DNA of 64,000 bases from Pseudoduganella violacea (GTDB lineage Bacteria > Pseudomonadota > Gammaproteobacteria > Burkholderiales > Burkholderiaceae_D): assembly GCF_014191875.1 (NCBI RefSeq), contig NZ_JACHXD010000008.1, forward strand, positions 186,001-250,000, given 5' to 3'. Positions 1,135 to 62,792 of the stretch are shown here, in pieces. The notes beneath the pieces were generated by a model. That model saw nothing but the letters and a program-made list of their open reading frames with translations, was not told where the DNA came from and searched no databases. The position numbers and the translations under genes are program-made. Each line of letters opens with the position of its first letter. The first letter of the stretch is position 1.

Positions 1135-3722
1135 GTCCCGCGCCCGGCAAGCAGCAGGCCGCCGCGCTGCGGCGCCTGTCGCGCTGGCTGCTGCTGGGCG
1201 AATGGCGCGCCCATCCGCTGCGCGCGCTGATGGCGATTGCCGCCATCGCCGTGGGCGTGGCGCTGGGCTTCGCCATCCACCTGATCAACGGCGCCGCCTT
1301 CAACGAATTCTCCACCGCCATCAGCAGCCTGTCCGGCCAGGCCGATCTGCAGGTCAGCGCCACCGAAGCGTATTTCGACGAAGAGATTTATCCGCGCCTG
1401 GCGCAAAAGCCGGAAGTAGCCGTGGCCTCGCCGGTGTTGCAGCTGGATGCCGTCGTCCCTGGCCAGAAACAGCCGCTGCGCATCATCGGCATGGACAGCT
1501 TCCGTTCGATGTTCATCACGCCAGATCTGCTAGCTGTGCCGGCCAGCGGCGACCCGACCGACAGCATGGCGGCCGACGCCCTCTTCCTGTCCGGCGCGGC
1601 GGAAAGCTGGCTGGGGCCAAAGGCGGGCAGCATGGTCGCCTTCCAGTCCGGCACCCGGCCCGTGGCGCTGCGCTTCGCCGGTTCGCTGCAGCGCGCCCGT
1701 GTCGGCCAGCGCCTGGGCGTGATGGACCTGGGCGCCCTGCAATGGCGCTTCAATAAGCTGGGCCAGTTGTCGCGCATCGACCTGAAACTGCGCGATGGCG
1801 TGGACCGCAAAGCTTTCCAGGCGCAGTTGACGCAGGAACTGCAAGCCGCCTACCCCGGCCGTTTCCGCGTCAGCCAGCCGAACGACGAGAACCAGAATAG
1901 CCGCAACAGTAATCTGAGCCGGGCTTACCGCGTCAATCTCAGCGTGCTGGCCTTGGTGGCCCTGTTCACCGGCGCCTTCCTCGTGTTTTCTACCCAGGCC
2001 CTGTCCGTGACGCGCCGCCGCAGCCAGTTCGCCCTGCTGCGCGTGCTGGGCCTGGAGCGCCGCCGCCTGCTGCGCCAGGTGCTGCTCGAAGGCCTGAGCC
2101 TGGGCATTCTGGGCGCGGCGCTGGGCATCGGCGCCGGCTACGCTTTTGCCGCCGCCGCGCTGCGCTTTTTCGGCGGCGACCTTGGCGCGGGTTATTTCTC
2201 GGGCGTGCAGCCGGCGGCGCAATTCGACCTCGGCGCCGCCATCGTCTACTTCCTACTCGGCGTGGGCGTGGCCTTGCTGGGCTGCGCCGGTCCGGCCTGG
2301 GAAGCGGCGCGCGCCACGCCCGCCGTGGCGCTCAAATCCGGTTCGGACGAAATGGCGCTCAGGCGCCTGGCCAAGGCCTGGCCAGGCCTGGCCTGCCTCG
2401 CGGCGGCCGCGCTGATGGCGCTGGCGCCGCCGGTAACGGAACTGCCGCTGTTCGGTTATCTCTCGATTGCGCTGCTGCTGATCGGCGGCATCTCGTTGAT
2501 GCCGCGCCTGGCCGCCCTCACCTTCCGCCTGGCGCACCGGCGCTGGCAGGCGGCAATGGCCGGCCGCAGCGCACCGCCCGCTGTGCCGACCTTGACCCTG
2601 GCCCGTCTCGCCAATGCCTCGGGACAGGCGGGTGTGGCGCTGGGCGGGGTGCTGTCCAGTTTCAGCCTGATGGTGGCGATGGCCATCATGGTGGCCAGCT
2701 TCCGCGTGTCGGTGGACGACTGGCTGCTGCAGATCCTGCCCGCCGACCTGTACGCCAATGCCGGCGCGGGCAGCACGGCCGGCCTGTCGCCGCAGAACCA
2801 GCAAGCCATCCGCAGCCTGCCGGGCGTGGCGAAAGCTGATTTCATGCGTCTGCGCTCCGTCTCGCTGGCGCCCGACCGCGCCAATGTCATGATTATGGCG
2901 CGCAATATCGATGAAGCCCACCTGGACAAAGCCATGGTGCTGACCAGCGAGGTGCGGGTCCAGCCGGCAGGCCGCAAGCTGCCGCCGGTCTGGGTTTCGG
3001 AGGCGATGGCCGACCTGTATCGGGCCAAGCCGGGTGGCGTGCTGACCCTGCCACTGCAGGGCCGGCCGCATGAATTCTTCGTCGGCGGTATCTGGCGCGA
3101 CTACGCGCGCTCCACCGGCGCGGCGATAATCCAGCTATCCGACTACCGCGCCATCACCGGCGATATGGAAGTCTCCGGCACCGCCATCTGGCTGGAGAAA
3201 GGCGCCAGCGCCGCCACAGTTCAGCAGCACCTGAAAGCCCTGGAGTTCGGCGGCGCGCTGGAAGTCACATCGCCCGGCGAGCTGCGCGCCCTGAGCCTGA
3301 AAATTTTCGACCGCAGCTTTGCCGTCACCTATCTGCTGGAGGCCATTGCCATCGTCATCGGCCTGTTCGGCGTGGCCGCGACCTTCTCGGCCCAGACCCT
3401 GGCGCGGGCGCGCGAATTCGGCATGCTGCGCCACGTCGGCCTGACGCGGCGCCAGATCCTGGGCATCCTGGCGCTCGAAGGCGGCACGCTGACGGCGCTG
3501 GGCATCGCCACCGGCTTTGTGCTCGGTCTGGCCATCAGCGTGATCCTGGTCTACGTCGTCAATCCCCAATCCTTCCACTGGAGCATGCAGATGCACTTCC
3601 CCTGGGCCTTGCTGGCCAGCGTGGCGGGCGCCCTGCTCGTCGCGGCCGCGCTCACCGCCCTGTTCGCAGGCCGCCAGGCCTTGTCGGGCGGCCCGCTGCG
3701 CGCCGTGCGGGAGGATTGGTGA
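1122..3722 (+). CDS. ABC transporter permease, two FtsX domains
   Basis: This 866-residue inner-membrane protein has the MacB/LolC/AttF layout: an N-terminal membrane helix (LMAIAAIAVGVALGFAIHLI), a large periplasmic domain, a three-helix FtsX block around residues 270-400 with SRAYRVNLSVLALVALFTGAF, a second periplasmic stretch, and a final FtsX block (AREFGMLRHVGLTRRQILGI). The long double-FtsX form resembles permeases thought to export lipids, lipoproteins or peptides rather than import solutes. I start it at ATG 1122, giving MPALSPAPGKQ; an upstream extension in the same frame is arginine-rich and implausible. TTG 1131 is an alternative. It overlaps the following gene by one base. No partner ATPase gene lies next to it in the window. 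Confidence 0.85.
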   Translation: MPALSPAPGKQQAAALRRLSRWLLLGEWRAHPLRALMAIAAIAVGVALGFAIHLINGAAFNEFSTAISSLSGQADLQVSATEAYFDEEIYPRLAQKPEVAVASPVLQLDAVVPGQKQPLRIIGMDSFRSMFITPDLLAVPASGDPTDSMAADALFLSGAAESWLGPKAGSMVAFQSGTRPVALRFAGSLQRARVGQRLGVMDLGALQWRFNKLGQLSRIDLKLRDGVDRKAFQAQLTQELQAAYPGRFRVSQPNDENQNSRNSNLSRAYRVNLSVLALVALFTGAFLVFSTQALSVTRRRSQFALLRVLGLERRRLLRQVLLEGLSLGILGAALGIGAGYAFAAAALRFFGGDLGAGYFSGVQPAAQFDLGAAIVYFLLGVGVALLGCAGPAWEAARATPAVALKSGSDEMALRRLAKAWPGLACLAAAALMALAPPVTELPLFGYLSIALLLIGGISLMPRLAALTFRLAHRRWQAAMAGRSAPPAVPTLTLARLANASGQAGVALGGVLSSFSLMVAMAIMVASFRVSVDDWLLQILPADLYANAGAGSTAGLSPQNQQAIRSLPGVAKADFMRLRSVSLAPDRANVMIMARNIDEAHLDKAMVLTSEVRVQPAGRKLPPVWVSEAMADLYRAKPGGVLTLPLQGRPHEFFVGGIWRDYARSTGAAIIQLSDYRAITGDMEVSGTAIWLEKGASAATVQQHLKALEFGGALEVTSPGELRALSLKIFDRSFAVTYLLEAIAIVIGLFGVAATFSAQTLARAREFGMLRHVGLTRRQILGILALEGGTLTALGIATGFVLGLAISVILVYVVNPQSFHWSMQMHFPWALLASVAGALLVAAALTALFAGRQALSGGPLRAVREDW

Positions 3723-58707: not shown

Positions 58708-59655
58708 GTGACCATACTTAATCTATTACGCAAAAAGGCTTGTAACTATCTTTTACCAGCCGCGCTGATCGCTGCCGCCTTACCCGGGCAGGCAGCAGTA
58801 ATCAATCTCTCCGCCGCCACCAGTTCCGTGGCGGTCGGCCAAAACTTCAATGTGGACTTCCGCATCAGCGGCTTGACTGGCGCCTTGGGCGACTCGCTCA
58901 GCGGCTTTGACCTGACCGTGCTATTCGACTCCAAAGTCCTGCAACTGACCGGTTTCAGTTTCATCGATTCCAATGGCGCGAATCAGCTCGACTTGGCCGA
59001 AGCCGCATCCTTCGGTTTTCTCGGCGATGCGAAGGTATCCGGCAACCTTATCGATGTCTTCGGCTTATCGGGCAATAGCGCCCTCGTGCTGGACTCCGCC
59101 CAAACCGACGCCTTCCGCTTCCTGAGCCTGAACTTCAAGGCGCTGGCGCCCAGCGCAGGCGCGGTAGTCAAACTCGACACAGTTGACCTTGATATGTTGT
59201 TCATCGATAGTGGAGCCGGCTACCTCCCTATCAGCTTTGACAACGAAGGACTGGAGATCGCCATCGGCCAGAACACCCAGGTGCCAGAACCCGGCACTTT
59301 GCTGTTGCTGCTGGCTGCCCTACCCGCATTGCTCCTGGCGCGCCGCCGTGGCGCGGCTGCTCTGGTCTTGAGCGCCGGTCTGGTCGCCACCGTGCCTGCA
59401 TCGGCCAAGCAGCCAGCACCGGCCCAGGCCAGCAAAGACGCTTCCGCCCCCGCCGCCAAAGCCGGCGATGCCGTCAACGGGCAAATCCTGGAGATCAAGG
59501 GCCAGCGCGCCCAGATCCGCTTGAGCAATGGCAGCGTGCAGTGGGTGTCGCTGGATGCCCCGGTCGGCAATCTGCTGGTCGGCGCCAAGATCAGCGGCAA
59601 GCTGGTACAGGGCGGCGACACGCTGCGCCTGACCAATATCTCCATTTCCAACTGA
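58708..59655 (+). CDS. Cohesin-like protein with internal PEP-CTERM signal
   Basis: The 315-residue protein has a signal peptide (about 1-30), then a cohesin-like beta-sandwich (31-187; VINLSAATSSVAVGQNFNVD and LSGFDLTVLFDSKVLQLTG fit the family's start and strand pattern). At 192 begins VPEPGTLLLLLAALPALLLA with RRR at 212-214: a complete PEP-CTERM sorting signal, normally the last 25 residues of a protein. Here about 100 residues follow: a second hydrophobic segment, a Lys/Ala/Pro linker with an AxA site, and a small beta domain (GQILEIKGQRAQIRLSNG). Start GTG 58708 follows GAGAGG. First gene of the sigma-54 operon. Confidence 0.85.
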   Translation: MTILNLLRKKACNYLLPAALIAAALPGQAAVINLSAATSSVAVGQNFNVDFRISGLTGALGDSLSGFDLTVLFDSKVLQLTGFSFIDSNGANQLDLAEAASFGFLGDAKVSGNLIDVFGLSGNSALVLDSAQTDAFRFLSLNFKALAPSAGAVVKLDTVDLDMLFIDSGAGYLPISFDNEGLEIAIGQNTQVPEPGTLLLLLAALPALLLARRRGAAALVLSAGLVATVPASAKQPAPAQASKDASAPAAKAGDAVNGQILEIKGQRAQIRLSNGSVQWVSLDAPVGNLLVGAKISGKLVQGGDTLRLTNISISN

Positions 59656-59679
59656 CGGCCATCCTTTTCGGAGCTAATA

Positions 59680-61128
59680 ATGCGATTGAATATCACAGCG
59701 CTCTGGCTGGCGTTGGCGGCATCGTTTGCCGCCGCGCCGGCACTGGCGCAGACCACGTCCCCCTTCACCCCGCCCGAGGAAAAACTCGGCATCTATGTCG
59801 CCAATTCCGGCCCCGGCCTGGATACCGGCTGCACCTATCGCGGCGGCGGCCCCCTGCTGATCAAGATTCCCGTCCCCAAGGTCGTCAACGACAAGCAGTT
59901 GAACCCGGACGGCACCCTGGCCGACGCGGCCAAACTGGTGAGCAATGGCGTGCTGTCGGCCCAGGCCACGATCCGCTTCCCTGTGTACGATATCGATGAT
60001 AAGGCGCAAAATCCCGGCATCGCGCCTGAACTGGACCGCGTAAGCTTCAACGGCAAGTTCAAGAAAACGCTGGAAGGCTTTAACAACACCTGGACCGACG
60101 ACAGCATCATCGTGCCGATCGAAGAATTGAAGTTCGGCCAGGACAACGAGCTGCGCATCGATATCGACACCGGCAACACCACGGAGGAATGGTGCATGGC
60201 CGTGGACTGGGTTTCCATCGAATTCGAAGCCACGCCGCCCTATGTGCTGGCGCATGGCATCTGGGCCGACCGCGGCACCTGGGATGAGGGCGAGTCGCCC
60301 GGCGTGCTGGCCGCGCTGGAAGAACGCGGCGTGCTGGTTGACCGCTGGTCGCTGGGCGTGGCGCAGAACGGCAACGGTTCGGTGGCGGCCAACGCGGCCG
60401 AGCTGAATACCCATATCACCGACTACCTGAAACCGCTGAAAGCCGACAAGGTCCATATCATCGCCCACAGCAAGGGTGGCCTGGACTCGCAGGGCTTGCA
60501 GGCGCTGGGACCGGAGTTCGAGATCGTCTCTCTGTCCACGCTCTCCACCCCGCACCGCGGCAGCGTGGCGGCCGACCTCTCCATCATCCAGAAAACCACG
60601 GCCGACGACCTGGTCGCCCGGGGCGACGATCCCGGTGGCCTGGCTGCCGCCTACATCGATGGCTGGACTTTTGGACAAGGGCCGCAACTGCCCGGCCTGC
60701 GCGACCTGACCACCTATGCGGCAACGGCGGCCATCTCCACCGGCCAGCGCGGCAACATCCCCGGCACCTATACCTTTGGCGCCAACGCCGACTTGAATCA
60801 CGATGACCTGCTGACCGATAACGAGATGGATCCCTATCCCGGCATTTCCCACCGCGCGCTGGAACGGGCATGGCGCGTGCTGCGCACTTTCCAGGAGGCG
60901 ACCATGACGCTGACCACGGTGCCAGGCCATATCTGGGGCACGCGCACGGTGCTGACCTACACCACCGTGCTGACGCCCGAACCGCAGGCAAACGATATAG
61001 TCGTCACGGAGAATTCGGCCAATCCCGGCTACGGCACGCCGCTGGGCAATAGCGGGGCCAATCACAATACGGTACGCAGCGTGGGCAACGTCAATACCGC
61101 CCTCGACACCACGATCCCACTCAAATGA
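59680..61128 (+). CDS. Secreted alpha/beta hydrolase (lipase/PGAP1-like)
   Basis: This 482-residue protein has a signal peptide (ending ALAQTTS), a beta-rich N-terminal domain (about 30-185), then an alpha/beta-hydrolase domain: oxyanion AHGIWADRGTW (191-201), nucleophile S264 in IIAHSKGGLDS (a G-x-S-x-G variant with H and K around the serine), and STPHRGS. The type resembles extracellular lipases and PGAP1-like esterases. A possible catalytic histidine is in TTVPGHIWGTR. It follows the cohesin gene by 24 bp and overlaps the dockerin gene by 4 bp. Confidence 0.82.
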   Translation: MRLNITALWLALAASFAAAPALAQTTSPFTPPEEKLGIYVANSGPGLDTGCTYRGGGPLLIKIPVPKVVNDKQLNPDGTLADAAKLVSNGVLSAQATIRFPVYDIDDKAQNPGIAPELDRVSFNGKFKKTLEGFNNTWTDDSIIVPIEELKFGQDNELRIDIDTGNTTEEWCMAVDWVSIEFEATPPYVLAHGIWADRGTWDEGESPGVLAALEERGVLVDRWSLGVAQNGNGSVAANAAELNTHITDYLKPLKADKVHIIAHSKGGLDSQGLQALGPEFEIVSLSTLSTPHRGSVAADLSIIQKTTADDLVARGDDPGGLAAAYIDGWTFGQGPQLPGLRDLTTYAATAAISTGQRGNIPGTYTFGANADLNHDDLLTDNEMDPYPGISHRALERAWRVLRTFQEATMTLTTVPGHIWGTRTVLTYTTVLTPEPQANDIVVTENSANPGYGTPLGNSGANHNTVRSVGNVNTALDTTIPLK

Positions 61129-62792
61129 AGAGAACCGCGATGAAGACATTTATCACCTTGCTGTCAGCGGCACGATCGGCGCTTAGCCGCTTGTGGGCGC
61201 TGCTTTTCCTGTTTGCGCTGGCTTGCGGCCTGTCCGCCGCCCACGCGCAAAGCGTGCCGGTGGCGGTGAATACGCCGGTCACGGTCACGGGCAATATCGC
61301 GCCCGGCGCCACCTCGCTGGATATTCCCTTCAATGTCGGCGGCGCCGATGGCCTGCGCTTCGACCTGATCGTACCGGTCAATGGCGCCACCCTGAGCCTG
61401 ATCGATCCGAACGGCAAAGTCGCCATCGGCCCGCAGGATTCGCGCCTGAGCTTTGAACCAGGCAGCGGCCGCACGCCGCCGTTGCCGGGCGGCGTGTTCA
61501 CCGGTGCCGAACTGGCCAATCCCGCCGATGGCGTTTGGATTCTGCGCGTCAGCTTCCCGGCCGCGCCGGTCAAGACCGTGGCCCTGGGTACGGTGTTTGC
61601 CCGCTCGCGCTATCAGGTCGGCATCGCCATCGAACGCACTACCCTGCTGGCTGGGGAAGACGTGGGCGTGGGCCTGCTGGTGCTGGACAATGGCCAGCCG
61701 ATCAAGGCGCTGACGCCAAGCATCGCCATCGGCTCCGCTGCGGCGCAAGCCGCGCTGGATAACGGCCAGGGCGCGGATGGACTGGCGAATGACGGCGTGT
61801 ACAGCGTCGACCATACTTTCGCCGTCGCCGGCACGTTCGACATCGTCGGCAAGGTAACCATTCCCACTGCGAAGGGACCGATCCAGCGCAACGCCAGCGC
61901 CCAGGTCAAGGTGGTGCCGCCGCAACTGCAAAGCCAGGGCATCGACCTGCTGACTCAACGCGGCGCGAACAACTGCGTCAGCGGCCTGCAGGTGAATATC
62001 GGCTTCAATGTGCTGAAAGCGGCGCGTTATTCGACCCTGGTGCGCCTGGCCGCGTCGAACGGCAAATACATCGACGTGCGCAAGGCTGGCAGCTACCAGC
62101 TTGGTCCCGTCACCGTATCGGCCAGCTACAGCGCGGCCGACCTGAAGGCCAAGCTTGGCAGCGACGGTCCTTTCCGCGTCAGCCAGATCGATACCCTGGA
62201 ACTGGGCGCCGACGAATTCACGCTGGCCTTCCGCAAGCGCGATGCCGGCGTGTTCAACGTCAATCTGTCCGACCTGTGCGCGGGCGCCATCGAACTGCAA
62301 AAGCAGCTCAGCGTGACGCCGGTGCTGCAGGACGGCTATATCGCCTCCTTCAAGCTGGCCTTCCCGGTCAAGGTGCGTTCGGCTGGCTTCTACCAGATCT
62401 CCTTCAAGGTGGTCGGCCCGAACGGCGAGGACATCGCCCTGCTCAACGCTTCGCGTTCGCTGCAGGCTGGCGACAATCTGGTGGAGGCGACCCTGGCGTC
62501 CGACAAGTTCCAGACCGTCGATGGCCCCTACCAGGCGATCTCGCTGGTGGTGGTGCAAGGCGCCAACAGCGCCCGCCTCACCAATATGGGCAGCACCGAC
62601 AGCTACTCGCGCTGGCAGTTCTATCCGAAAAAGGCCGGTGATCTGGATGGGGATGGCGTGGTTGGACCAGCTGATGTAAGCTTGATCACGCAGCAGCGCG
62701 GCGCCGCCCTGAAACCGGGCGACCGCCGCGACATCAACCGCGACGGCGTCATTGACCTGCGCGACGCCCGCGCATTGCAGCAACTGCGCTGA
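61125..62792 (+). CDS. Secreted multi-domain protein with C-terminal dockerin
   Basis: The 555-residue protein has a signal peptide (about 1-42, ALACGLSAAHAQS), a pre-peptidase-like beta domain (about 45-160), Ig-like parts with a CARDB/choice-of-anchor feel (to about 500), and a type I-like dockerin at 502-555. Its two calcium loops are canonical: D506-x-D508-x-D510-G...D517 and D536-x-N538-x-D540-G...D547. Dockerins bind cohesins, and a cohesin-like protein is two genes upstream. The start ATG 61125 overlaps the hydrolase stop. No catalytic motif is seen, so it may be an adaptor or binding protein. Confidence 0.85.
   Translation: MKRTAMKTFITLLSAARSALSRLWALLFLFALACGLSAAHAQSVPVAVNTPVTVTGNIAPGATSLDIPFNVGGADGLRFDLIVPVNGATLSLIDPNGKVAIGPQDSRLSFEPGSGRTPPLPGGVFTGAELANPADGVWILRVSFPAAPVKTVALGTVFARSRYQVGIAIERTTLLAGEDVGVGLLVLDNGQPIKALTPSIAIGSAAAQAALDNGQGADGLANDGVYSVDHTFAVAGTFDIVGKVTIPTAKGPIQRNASAQVKVVPPQLQSQGIDLLTQRGANNCVSGLQVNIGFNVLKAARYSTLVRLAASNGKYIDVRKAGSYQLGPVTVSASYSAADLKAKLGSDGPFRVSQIDTLELGADEFTLAFRKRDAGVFNVNLSDLCAGAIELQKQLSVTPVLQDGYIASFKLAFPVKVRSAGFYQISFKVVGPNGEDIALLNASRSLQAGDNLVEATLASDKFQTVDGPYQAISLVVVQGANSARLTNMGSTDSYSRWQFYPKKAGDLDGDGVVGPADVSLITQQRGAALKPGDRRDINRDGVIDLRDARALQQLR

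Follow-up and report, generated by a model that had tools for sequence, protein, structure and literature searches.

Why should a bacterium of the order Burkholderiales encode, within three adjacent genes, a cohesin-like protein with an exosortase sorting signal and a secreted protein that ends in a dockerin? The genes in question lie at 58708-62792 of a 64,000-nucleotide stretch of the Pseudoduganella violacea genome (contig NZ_JACHXD010000008.1, positions 186,001 to 250,000; hereafter the window). We consider it probable that genes 1-3 constitute a one-socket, one-plug display unit in which an exosortase-sorted cohesin receives the co-encoded dockerin protein. The basis of this reading is a predicted fold, sequence motifs, linkage within the genus, correlated divergence, two linked losses and one gene fusion, from which we infer binding, processing by an exosortase, location at the surface and a part for the hydrolase encoded by gene 2. 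In such a unit the gene 1 cohesin would be exported by Sec, and its exosortase signal would hand it to the cell envelope or the exopolysaccharide layer; the C-terminal dockerin of gene 3 would plug, with calcium, into this cohesin, the secreted gene 3 protein would thereby be retained at that layer, and the hydrolase would act at the same place. In related genomes the cohesin-dockerin device would be reused with unrelated cargo, each pair being its own matched version.

Cohesin, dockerin and sorting signal

By Pfam alone the cohesin of gene 1 is faint (16.7 bits, E 0.0087, under the Cohesin cut-off of 24.1), and phmmer, run against the Protein Data Bank (PDB) with gene 1 as the only query, returned no cohesin. 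A profile of 30 relatives that leaves out the window protein and three orthologues nevertheless gives the window cohesin 44 bits, the best of 500 shuffles reaching 8.6, and a profile built from the other cohesin class alone gives it 25.4 bits (best shuffle 12.8). The family profile A1, which includes the window domain, returns PDB cohesins as its first matches (E 5.6e-21). An AlphaFold2 model of residues 30-190, made from an alignment of four sequences, has a mean pLDDT of 76.5 and a pTM of 0.75, with residues 58-72 below a pLDDT of 50. The best 43 matches of this model in a Foldseek search of the PDB are all cohesins or scaffoldins, and VIA superimposes it on 2vo8 with a Z of 14.2 (rmsd 2.8 over 129 residues). 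The domain is thus predicted to have the cohesin beta-sandwich fold, and because the leave-out profile, the other-class profile and the predicted fold agree, we do not regard the weak Pfam score as chance.

Gene 3 closes with a dockerin in which both calcium loops are complete, with D or N at positions 1, 3, 5 and 12. Dockerin_1 scores 22.7 bits in hmmscan, where the cut-off is 22.9, and passes the cut-off with 25.6 bits when the genome is searched; the best PDB match is the dockerin chain 2y3n_B (E 3.1e-06), and a leave-out profile gives 48.2 bits against 10.6 for the best of 500 shuffles. The protein also carries an NCBIfam choice_anch_X domain (E 1.1e-06, 28.3 bits over a cut-off of 25), and the Pfam scan placed no glycoside hydrolase domain in it. 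Its AlphaFold model is beta-rich (mean pLDDT 74.4, pTM 0.44). In a Foldseek search with this model the 50 matches listed comprise complement or alpha-2-macroglobulin-like chains together with a DUF4785 protein; their TM scores, normalised by query length, are 0.14-0.30, which we take as general resemblance only.

The PEP-CTERM motif of gene 1 exceeds the cut-offs of both PF07589 (21.3 bits, cut-off 20.7) and TIGR02595 (21.6, cut-off 16), and the genome has two Exosortase_EpsH matches over cut-off. The motif is internal: 101 residues follow it, in the order arginines, second hydrophobic stretch, A-x-A site and small domain. A full-length alignment shows this arrangement alike in five orthologues (G047, G021, G044, G012 and Massilia sp. 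ZL223), with the second stretch conserved in position and its hydropathy between 1.3 and 1.8 in all six proteins; in one orthologue, from Rugamonas, AEP replaces PEP. The two stretches may form a hairpin that would be cut by an exosortase at the first element and by signal peptidase at the second, so that one gene 1 reading frame, with 59350-59652 as the tail, may yield two exported products. Most paired cohesins elsewhere end soon after their PEP-CTERM motif.

The original prediction had read gene 1 as cohesin-like and gene 3 as ending in a dockerin with two full calcium loops. Both statements hold, the first by the predicted fold (AlphaFold, Foldseek, VIA), which is that of a cohesin and not of something else, and the second by the match to 2y3n_B, the leave-out profile and the loop alignment. 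Its exosortase-linked cohesin stands as regards the motif, recognised by Pfam and NCBIfam, and the two exosortases of the genome, but the motif does not sit at the C-terminus.

Pairing, loss and matched divergence

We searched 74 genomes of the genus with profiles A1 (cohesin) and A2 (dockerin) and called two matches a pair when they lay within 5 kb on the same strand. A1 gave 55 matches and A2 gave 46. Cohesins in short or fused open reading frames (ORFs) lie near a dockerin in 44 of 46 cases, and 45 of the 46 dockerin matches lie near such a cohesin, the exception being a 24-codon deletion scar in genome G050. Pairs occur in 37 of the 74 genomes, so that the cohesin-dockerin neighbours which the original prediction had proposed to look for in other PEP-CTERM genomes do recur; in the ten genomes tested, PEP-CTERM matches at E up to 1 number 35-85 per genome. 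The cohesin is downstream of the dockerin in 38 of the 45 pairings, with a median gap of about 126 nt between the matched stretches, and the other seven comprise five of the window type, one fusion and one second dockerin in G016. A rough estimate of the chance of a dockerin neighbour is 0.0008 per cohesin, orthologous pairs not being independent. Two short cohesins have no dockerin neighbour: G012:C163, which has what looks like a secretin tail at its C-terminus, and G014:C11.

The loci that seeded A1 and A2 had themselves been identified by matching dockerins or cohesins, a circularity that was checked with leave-out profiles and with Pfam and NCBIfam scans. In a Pfam dockerin search of the genus, in which every candidate was scored, PF00404 gave 59 matches. 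A cohesin lies within 5 kb of 37 of these, the nearest being a PF00963 match in 26 cases and a match of the window-protein search in 11; 17 of the remaining 22 were set aside, and the last five adjoin a cohesin found by A1. With the set-asides removed, all 42 of 42 have a cohesin within 5 kb. The A1/A2 result and this fully scored search agree. Fourteen of the 59 were rejected as dockerins: they match the second half of the profile only (13 from position 19, one from position 32) in ORFs of 341-481 aa. One of these half matches, L133, was scanned and is a glycerophosphodiester phosphodiesterase; for the other 13 the judgement used only ORF length and the span of the profile match. No A1 cohesin lies near a further three matches, namely G016:C128 (in a 12,833-aa ORF), G066:C5 and G120:C12.

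Long-ORF cohesins behave differently, none of them lying near a dockerin (0 of 9 by A1, 0 of 21 by PF00963). The genome of the window has two such genes: L132:2172-4493 (G000:C17), which the scan identifies as a secretin with a C-terminal cohesin, and L144 (G000:C3); long cohesins other than L132 were classed by ORF length only. A dockerin might be a secretion tag read by the C-terminal cohesin of a secretin, with the PEP-CTERM cohesin serving as chaperone or decoy. The two long-ORF genes of this genome would suit that proposal, as would G063 and G065, where an ORF with STN-like and cohesin segments lies directly upstream of the pair. The missing linkage of long-ORF cohesins to dockerins speaks against it, as do G055 and G043, which have long-ORF cohesins but no dockerin match, and we find it very improbable. 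Since the secretin-type cohesins are not linked to dockerins, they probably have another use. We note separately that the upstream ORFs of G063 and G065 (L109 and L110), which we call STN-like from a reading of the sequence, could encode a second receptor.

Loss of the two modules is linked in two cases, and in two only. At the operon site of G058, between the phosphodiesterase gene and the gene for a 102-aa protein, neither a cohesin nor a hydrolase is matched, and the third gene ends before the dockerin; elsewhere this genome has a dockerin pair of reprolysin length (about 1000 aa). In G050 (L142), between genes for proteins of 668 and 101 aa, the trio is gone except for the 24-codon dockerin remnant. 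The 102-aa gene is retained in both genomes, and for that reason it probably lies outside the unit.

The partners of the paired cohesins are varied. Pfam finds an enzyme-type domain over cut-off in eight of 18 dockerin candidates (M12B protease, metallophosphoesterase, C39-like peptidase, C25 peptidase, a lactonase-type propeller and three GDSL lipases); further cargo has FG-GAP repeats, NHL repeats, an IgGFc-binding-like domain, Ig-like domains or nothing named. A glycoside hydrolase over cut-off was found in none of the 18, the Glyco_hydro_2_N match of L217 being below it. We compared 59 pairs, all from loci selected because both partners are present; L228 and L230, from the class sample, and the second dockerin of G016:C85 were excluded. 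Single-linkage BLAST places their partners in about 15 groups, which may be wrongly joined or split, at least one being joined according to Pfam (GDSL with NHL). Among the 58 paired cohesins scanned (the 59 minus the fusion), Pfam PEP-CTERM is present in 51, NCBIfam PEP_CTERM in 49 and Pfam Cohesin in 46, each at E up to 0.1, and in 57 of the 59 partners no more than 20 residues separate the end of the dockerin from the C-terminus. A motif pattern found a PEP-CTERM-like tail in none of the 58 non-fused partners, L216 being cut off before its C-terminus. In L244:2428-5496 a single 1022-aa ORF joins cohesin, PEP-CTERM, second hydrophobic stretch, FG-GAP repeats and dockerin (A2), in an order similar to that of gene 1 except that the repeats and dockerin replace the small domain.

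Distances among cohesins follow those among dockerins (r 0.89 for the 59 pairs, 0 of 5000 permutations; r 0.905 for the 44 pairs of the genus), and among 384 within-genome swaps, made in the seven genomes that have two or three pairs each, the true pairing ranks first. When one pair is taken per cargo group the correlation across the 15 groups is 0.67 (0 of 20,000 permutations). These figures could also arise if the linkage were historical only, the dockerin being a calcium-stabilised cap and the PEP-CTERM cohesin a binder of, for example, matrix polysaccharide. Linked genes diverge together through common inheritance, outside the genus a cohesin is missing from the neighbourhood of many dockerin matches, and calcium loops by themselves can act as folding caps. 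Against this stand the roughly 15 groups that keep a matched cohesin and dockerin while their cargo differs, the absence of the dockerin where the cohesin is absent at the G058 operon site, and the long-ORF cohesins, which match the same profile and are not linked to dockerins. Co-inheritance explains part of the correlation, but matched pairs across unrelated cargo are not readily explained by it, and we regard a purely historical linkage as unlikely.

We also made several observations on single loci. At G016:C85 (L123) one PEP-CTERM cohesin lies between two dockerin matches, and one socket may serve two cargoes. Head-to-tail assembly of the L244 fusion is conceivable. In L216:1-4539 and L218:6117-11000 giant RHS-repeat or teneurin-like proteins, encoded next to a PEP-CTERM cohesin, have an A2 dockerin close to their N-terminus. 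Dockerin_1 at E up to 0.01 matches neither this dockerin in L216 nor the second dockerin protein of L218, and both were recognised by A2 alone. A homologue of the reprolysin cargo that ended in PEP-CTERM would indicate that the dockerin replaces an anchor. A search of 300 genomes, limited to three scored candidates in each, matched six homologues; that of G102:C3 ends about where the dockerin would start and has neither dockerin nor PEP-CTERM, and five of the seven stretches concerned run past the end of the sequence read.

Counter-evidence and the wider samples

A number of results weigh against the display unit as we have drawn it. The PEP-CTERM motif of the window protein is internal, unlike that of classical substrates, and the model of gene 3 falls below a pLDDT of 50 from residue 489 and does not resolve the dockerin. 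The class II cohesin profile fails on L123 and L124 (2.1 and 2.7 bits, best shuffle 12.8), and Dockerin_1 at E up to 0.01 recognises only three of ten partners in one scan set (in another it recognises seven of eight candidates), the remaining partners of the first set being recognised by A2. The A2 search of the genus scored at most 86 candidates per genome, and its list is possibly incomplete. Neighbouring genes are co-inherited, so correlated divergence alone is no proof of contact, and the seven cargo groups confined to the genus give a weaker correlation (r 0.57, 267 of 20,000 permutations).

The remaining points of this kind come from samples of the order and the class, in which scoring was limited to 14-15 (A1) or 25 (A2) candidates in each genome. 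In the order sample, with the window's own matches excluded, six of 14 short-ORF A1 cohesins have a same-strand dockerin; among the eight unpaired ones, G102:C31 and G102:C35 are cut by contig ends. Seen from the dockerin side, six of 21 places have an A1 cohesin and one has a weak cohesin (G102:C26), while the 14 without a cohesin comprise seven in ORFs of 6,939-14,056 codons and seven others. In the class sample 16 short-ORF cohesin matches fall at 15 loci, and ten of these have a dockerin at E up to 0.01 by A2. An exosortase match is present in 97 of 250 genomes of the order sample and in six of the seven that have a pair, G266 having a pair without one. In G098 a dockerin-like protein (L137:1421-2824) is followed by a PEP-CTERM protein (2892-3632) that A1 does not recognise, and some tails outside the genus are VPLPA-like or unrecognised. 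Because pairing is so much weaker in the order and class samples, we confine the one-to-one rule to the genus, of which it is a property; farther out it is a tendency. Whether exosortase bacteria of the order, and perhaps of the class, share a general modular display, in which short exosortase-tagged cohesins are each co-encoded with and specific for one swappable dockerin cargo, the pair being fused or the dockerin borne by giant RHS-repeat proteins in some lineages, we hold to be evenly balanced, having lowered our estimate from slightly above that level on account of the dockerin counts outside the genus. Two side observations belong here: the PEP-CTERM protein of G098 is perhaps another kind of receptor, and dockerin-like segments occur in ORFs of about 10,000-14,000 codons in G016:C128, G099:C2, G128:C44, G128:C69, G191 and G230.

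A variant that is compatible with the binding step places the complex elsewhere: the pair would bind, but the cohesin would be released into the exopolysaccharide matrix and the complex would be a matrix component. It draws on the titles of two papers, one calling the PEP-CTERM system exopolysaccharide-associated (PMC1569441) and the other implicating a PEP-CTERM gene in floc formation (PMC9850573). We consider release of this kind possible but doubtful. Taken as a whole, the surface complex of the original prediction is partly supported: it keeps its predicted cohesin fold, its dockerin, the recurrence of the neighbours and the exosortases of the genome, and loses its terminal PEP-CTERM motif.

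Hydrolase, flanking genes and known systems

Gene 2 encodes an alpha/beta hydrolase (Pfam Abhydrolase_6, E 4.6e-06) with a hydrophobic stretch at its N-terminus. The AHSKGG motif is unchanged in all four aligned sequences, the window's included, and from the sequence S264 is the likely nucleophile. The product may well be secreted, and the Pfam scan found no dockerin in it. The secreted hydrolase that had been placed between the cohesin and dockerin genes is therefore there as a hydrolase but does not itself bear a dockerin. The coordinates 58708-62792 of the original prediction coincide exactly with the ORF boundaries: three plus-strand ORFs lie within them, with a gap of 24 nt between genes 1 and 2 and an overlap of 4 nt between genes 2 and 3 (Table 1). 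On the 5' side the operon is flanked by a 2',3'-cyclic-nucleotide phosphodiesterase gene on the opposite strand, and on the 3' side by the gene for the 102-aa protein, which has three hydrophobic stretches and beyond which lies a gene that we take to be prfB. The operon is also present in Massilia sp. BJB1822, Massilia sp. ZL223 and Rugamonas sp. CCM 8940. Scanning the window for promoters and terminators gave results close to chance level, and no tRNA was found in the window.

Table 1. Features of the three-gene operon, in window coordinates
Feature	Position	Strand	Details or basis
Gene 1: signal peptide, cohesin, internal PEP-CTERM, second hydrophobic stretch, small C-terminal domain	58708..59655	+	315 aa, GTG start
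Predicted cohesin domain, residues 30-190	58795..59277	+	AlphaFold2, Foldseek, VIA, leave-out profile
PEP-CTERM motif, residues 191-214: VPEPG, hydrophobic stretch, arginines	59278..59349	+	PF07589, TIGR02595
Second hydrophobic stretch, signal-peptide-like, A-x-A end, residues 215-233	59350..59406	+	Hydropathy, alignment
Small C-terminal domain of gene 1, residues 251-315	59458..59652	+	Conserved in window protein and five orthologues
Gene 2: alpha/beta hydrolase, AHSKGG motif, S264 likely nucleophile	59680..61128	+	482 aa; Pfam Abhydrolase_6
Gene 3: secreted multi-domain beta-sandwich protein, dockerin at end	61125..62792	+	555 aa
Dockerin type I domain, residues 504-555	62634..62789	+	Pfam, PDB chain 2y3n_B, leave-out profile
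Calcium loop 1, residues 506-517 (D506/D508/D510/D517)	62640..62675	+	Sequence, dockerin alignment A2
Calcium loop 2, residues 536-547 (D536/N538/D540/D547)	62730..62765	+	Sequence, dockerin alignment A2

The kind of interaction that we propose is known from cellulosomes and archaea, whereas its exosortase-tagged, cargo-swapping form was not found in the open-access literature searched. That literature yielded no report that combines PEP-CTERM with dockerin, with or without cohesin; the searches covered open-access papers, and priority is not established. Exosortase together with dockerin or cohesin led only to a review of anaerobic methanotrophic (ANME) archaea (PMC5244752), and cohesin, dockerin, Proteobacteria and sorting signal together only to the same review and PMC5817068. 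Outside cellulosomes the role of cohesins and dockerins is described, in passages of PMC5244752 and PMC9012536, as not known or as not evident from their presence alone. Within the genus the pairing is so regular that such a role becomes directly testable. That the pairing recurs with many different secreted proteins, enzymes among them in several cases, suggests that the device clips proteins onto the cell surface, and surface display could make use of the matched pairs as orthogonal clips. Most exosortase substrates are, to our knowledge, without a known job; if our reading is right, the exosortase would gain a concrete one, that of anchoring a socket.

The cellulosomes of clostridia and Ruminococcus share with the window the cohesin fold and the duplicated-loop dockerin, and PDB cohesins and dockerins are the top matches. 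According to passages of PMC9012536, cellulosomes can be fixed to the cell either by sortases or by anchor proteins that combine cohesin and SLH domains, whereas the window system has a PEP-CTERM tag in place of either. It also has one cohesin per protein and no cellulase domain in gene 3. A search of the window's genome found no multi-cohesin scaffoldin: there is one A1 match, and the two PF00963 matches are in long ORFs with one cohesin each. The non-cellulosomal pairs of archaea (Archaeoglobus fulgidus and ANME) likewise have cohesin and dockerin outside cellulosomes; archaeal versions are reported to bind (passages of PMC9012536), and display on E. coli has been carried out with the A. fulgidus pair (passages of PMC9705933). 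The same passages describe no exosortase-tagged cohesin beside each dockerin cargo, and ANME archaea differ further in that their proteins include forms with up to five cohesins.

From the side of protein sorting, the gene 1 product resembles PEP-CTERM/exosortase substrates in its motif, which is over both the Pfam and NCBIfam cut-offs, and in the presence of exosortases in the genome, and it differs from them in that the tag is internal and sits on the predicted receptor for another protein. Gene 3 resembles the NCBIfam choice-of-anchor X proteins in a domain that exceeds their cut-off, but its C-terminal module is a dockerin and not a direct sorting signal.

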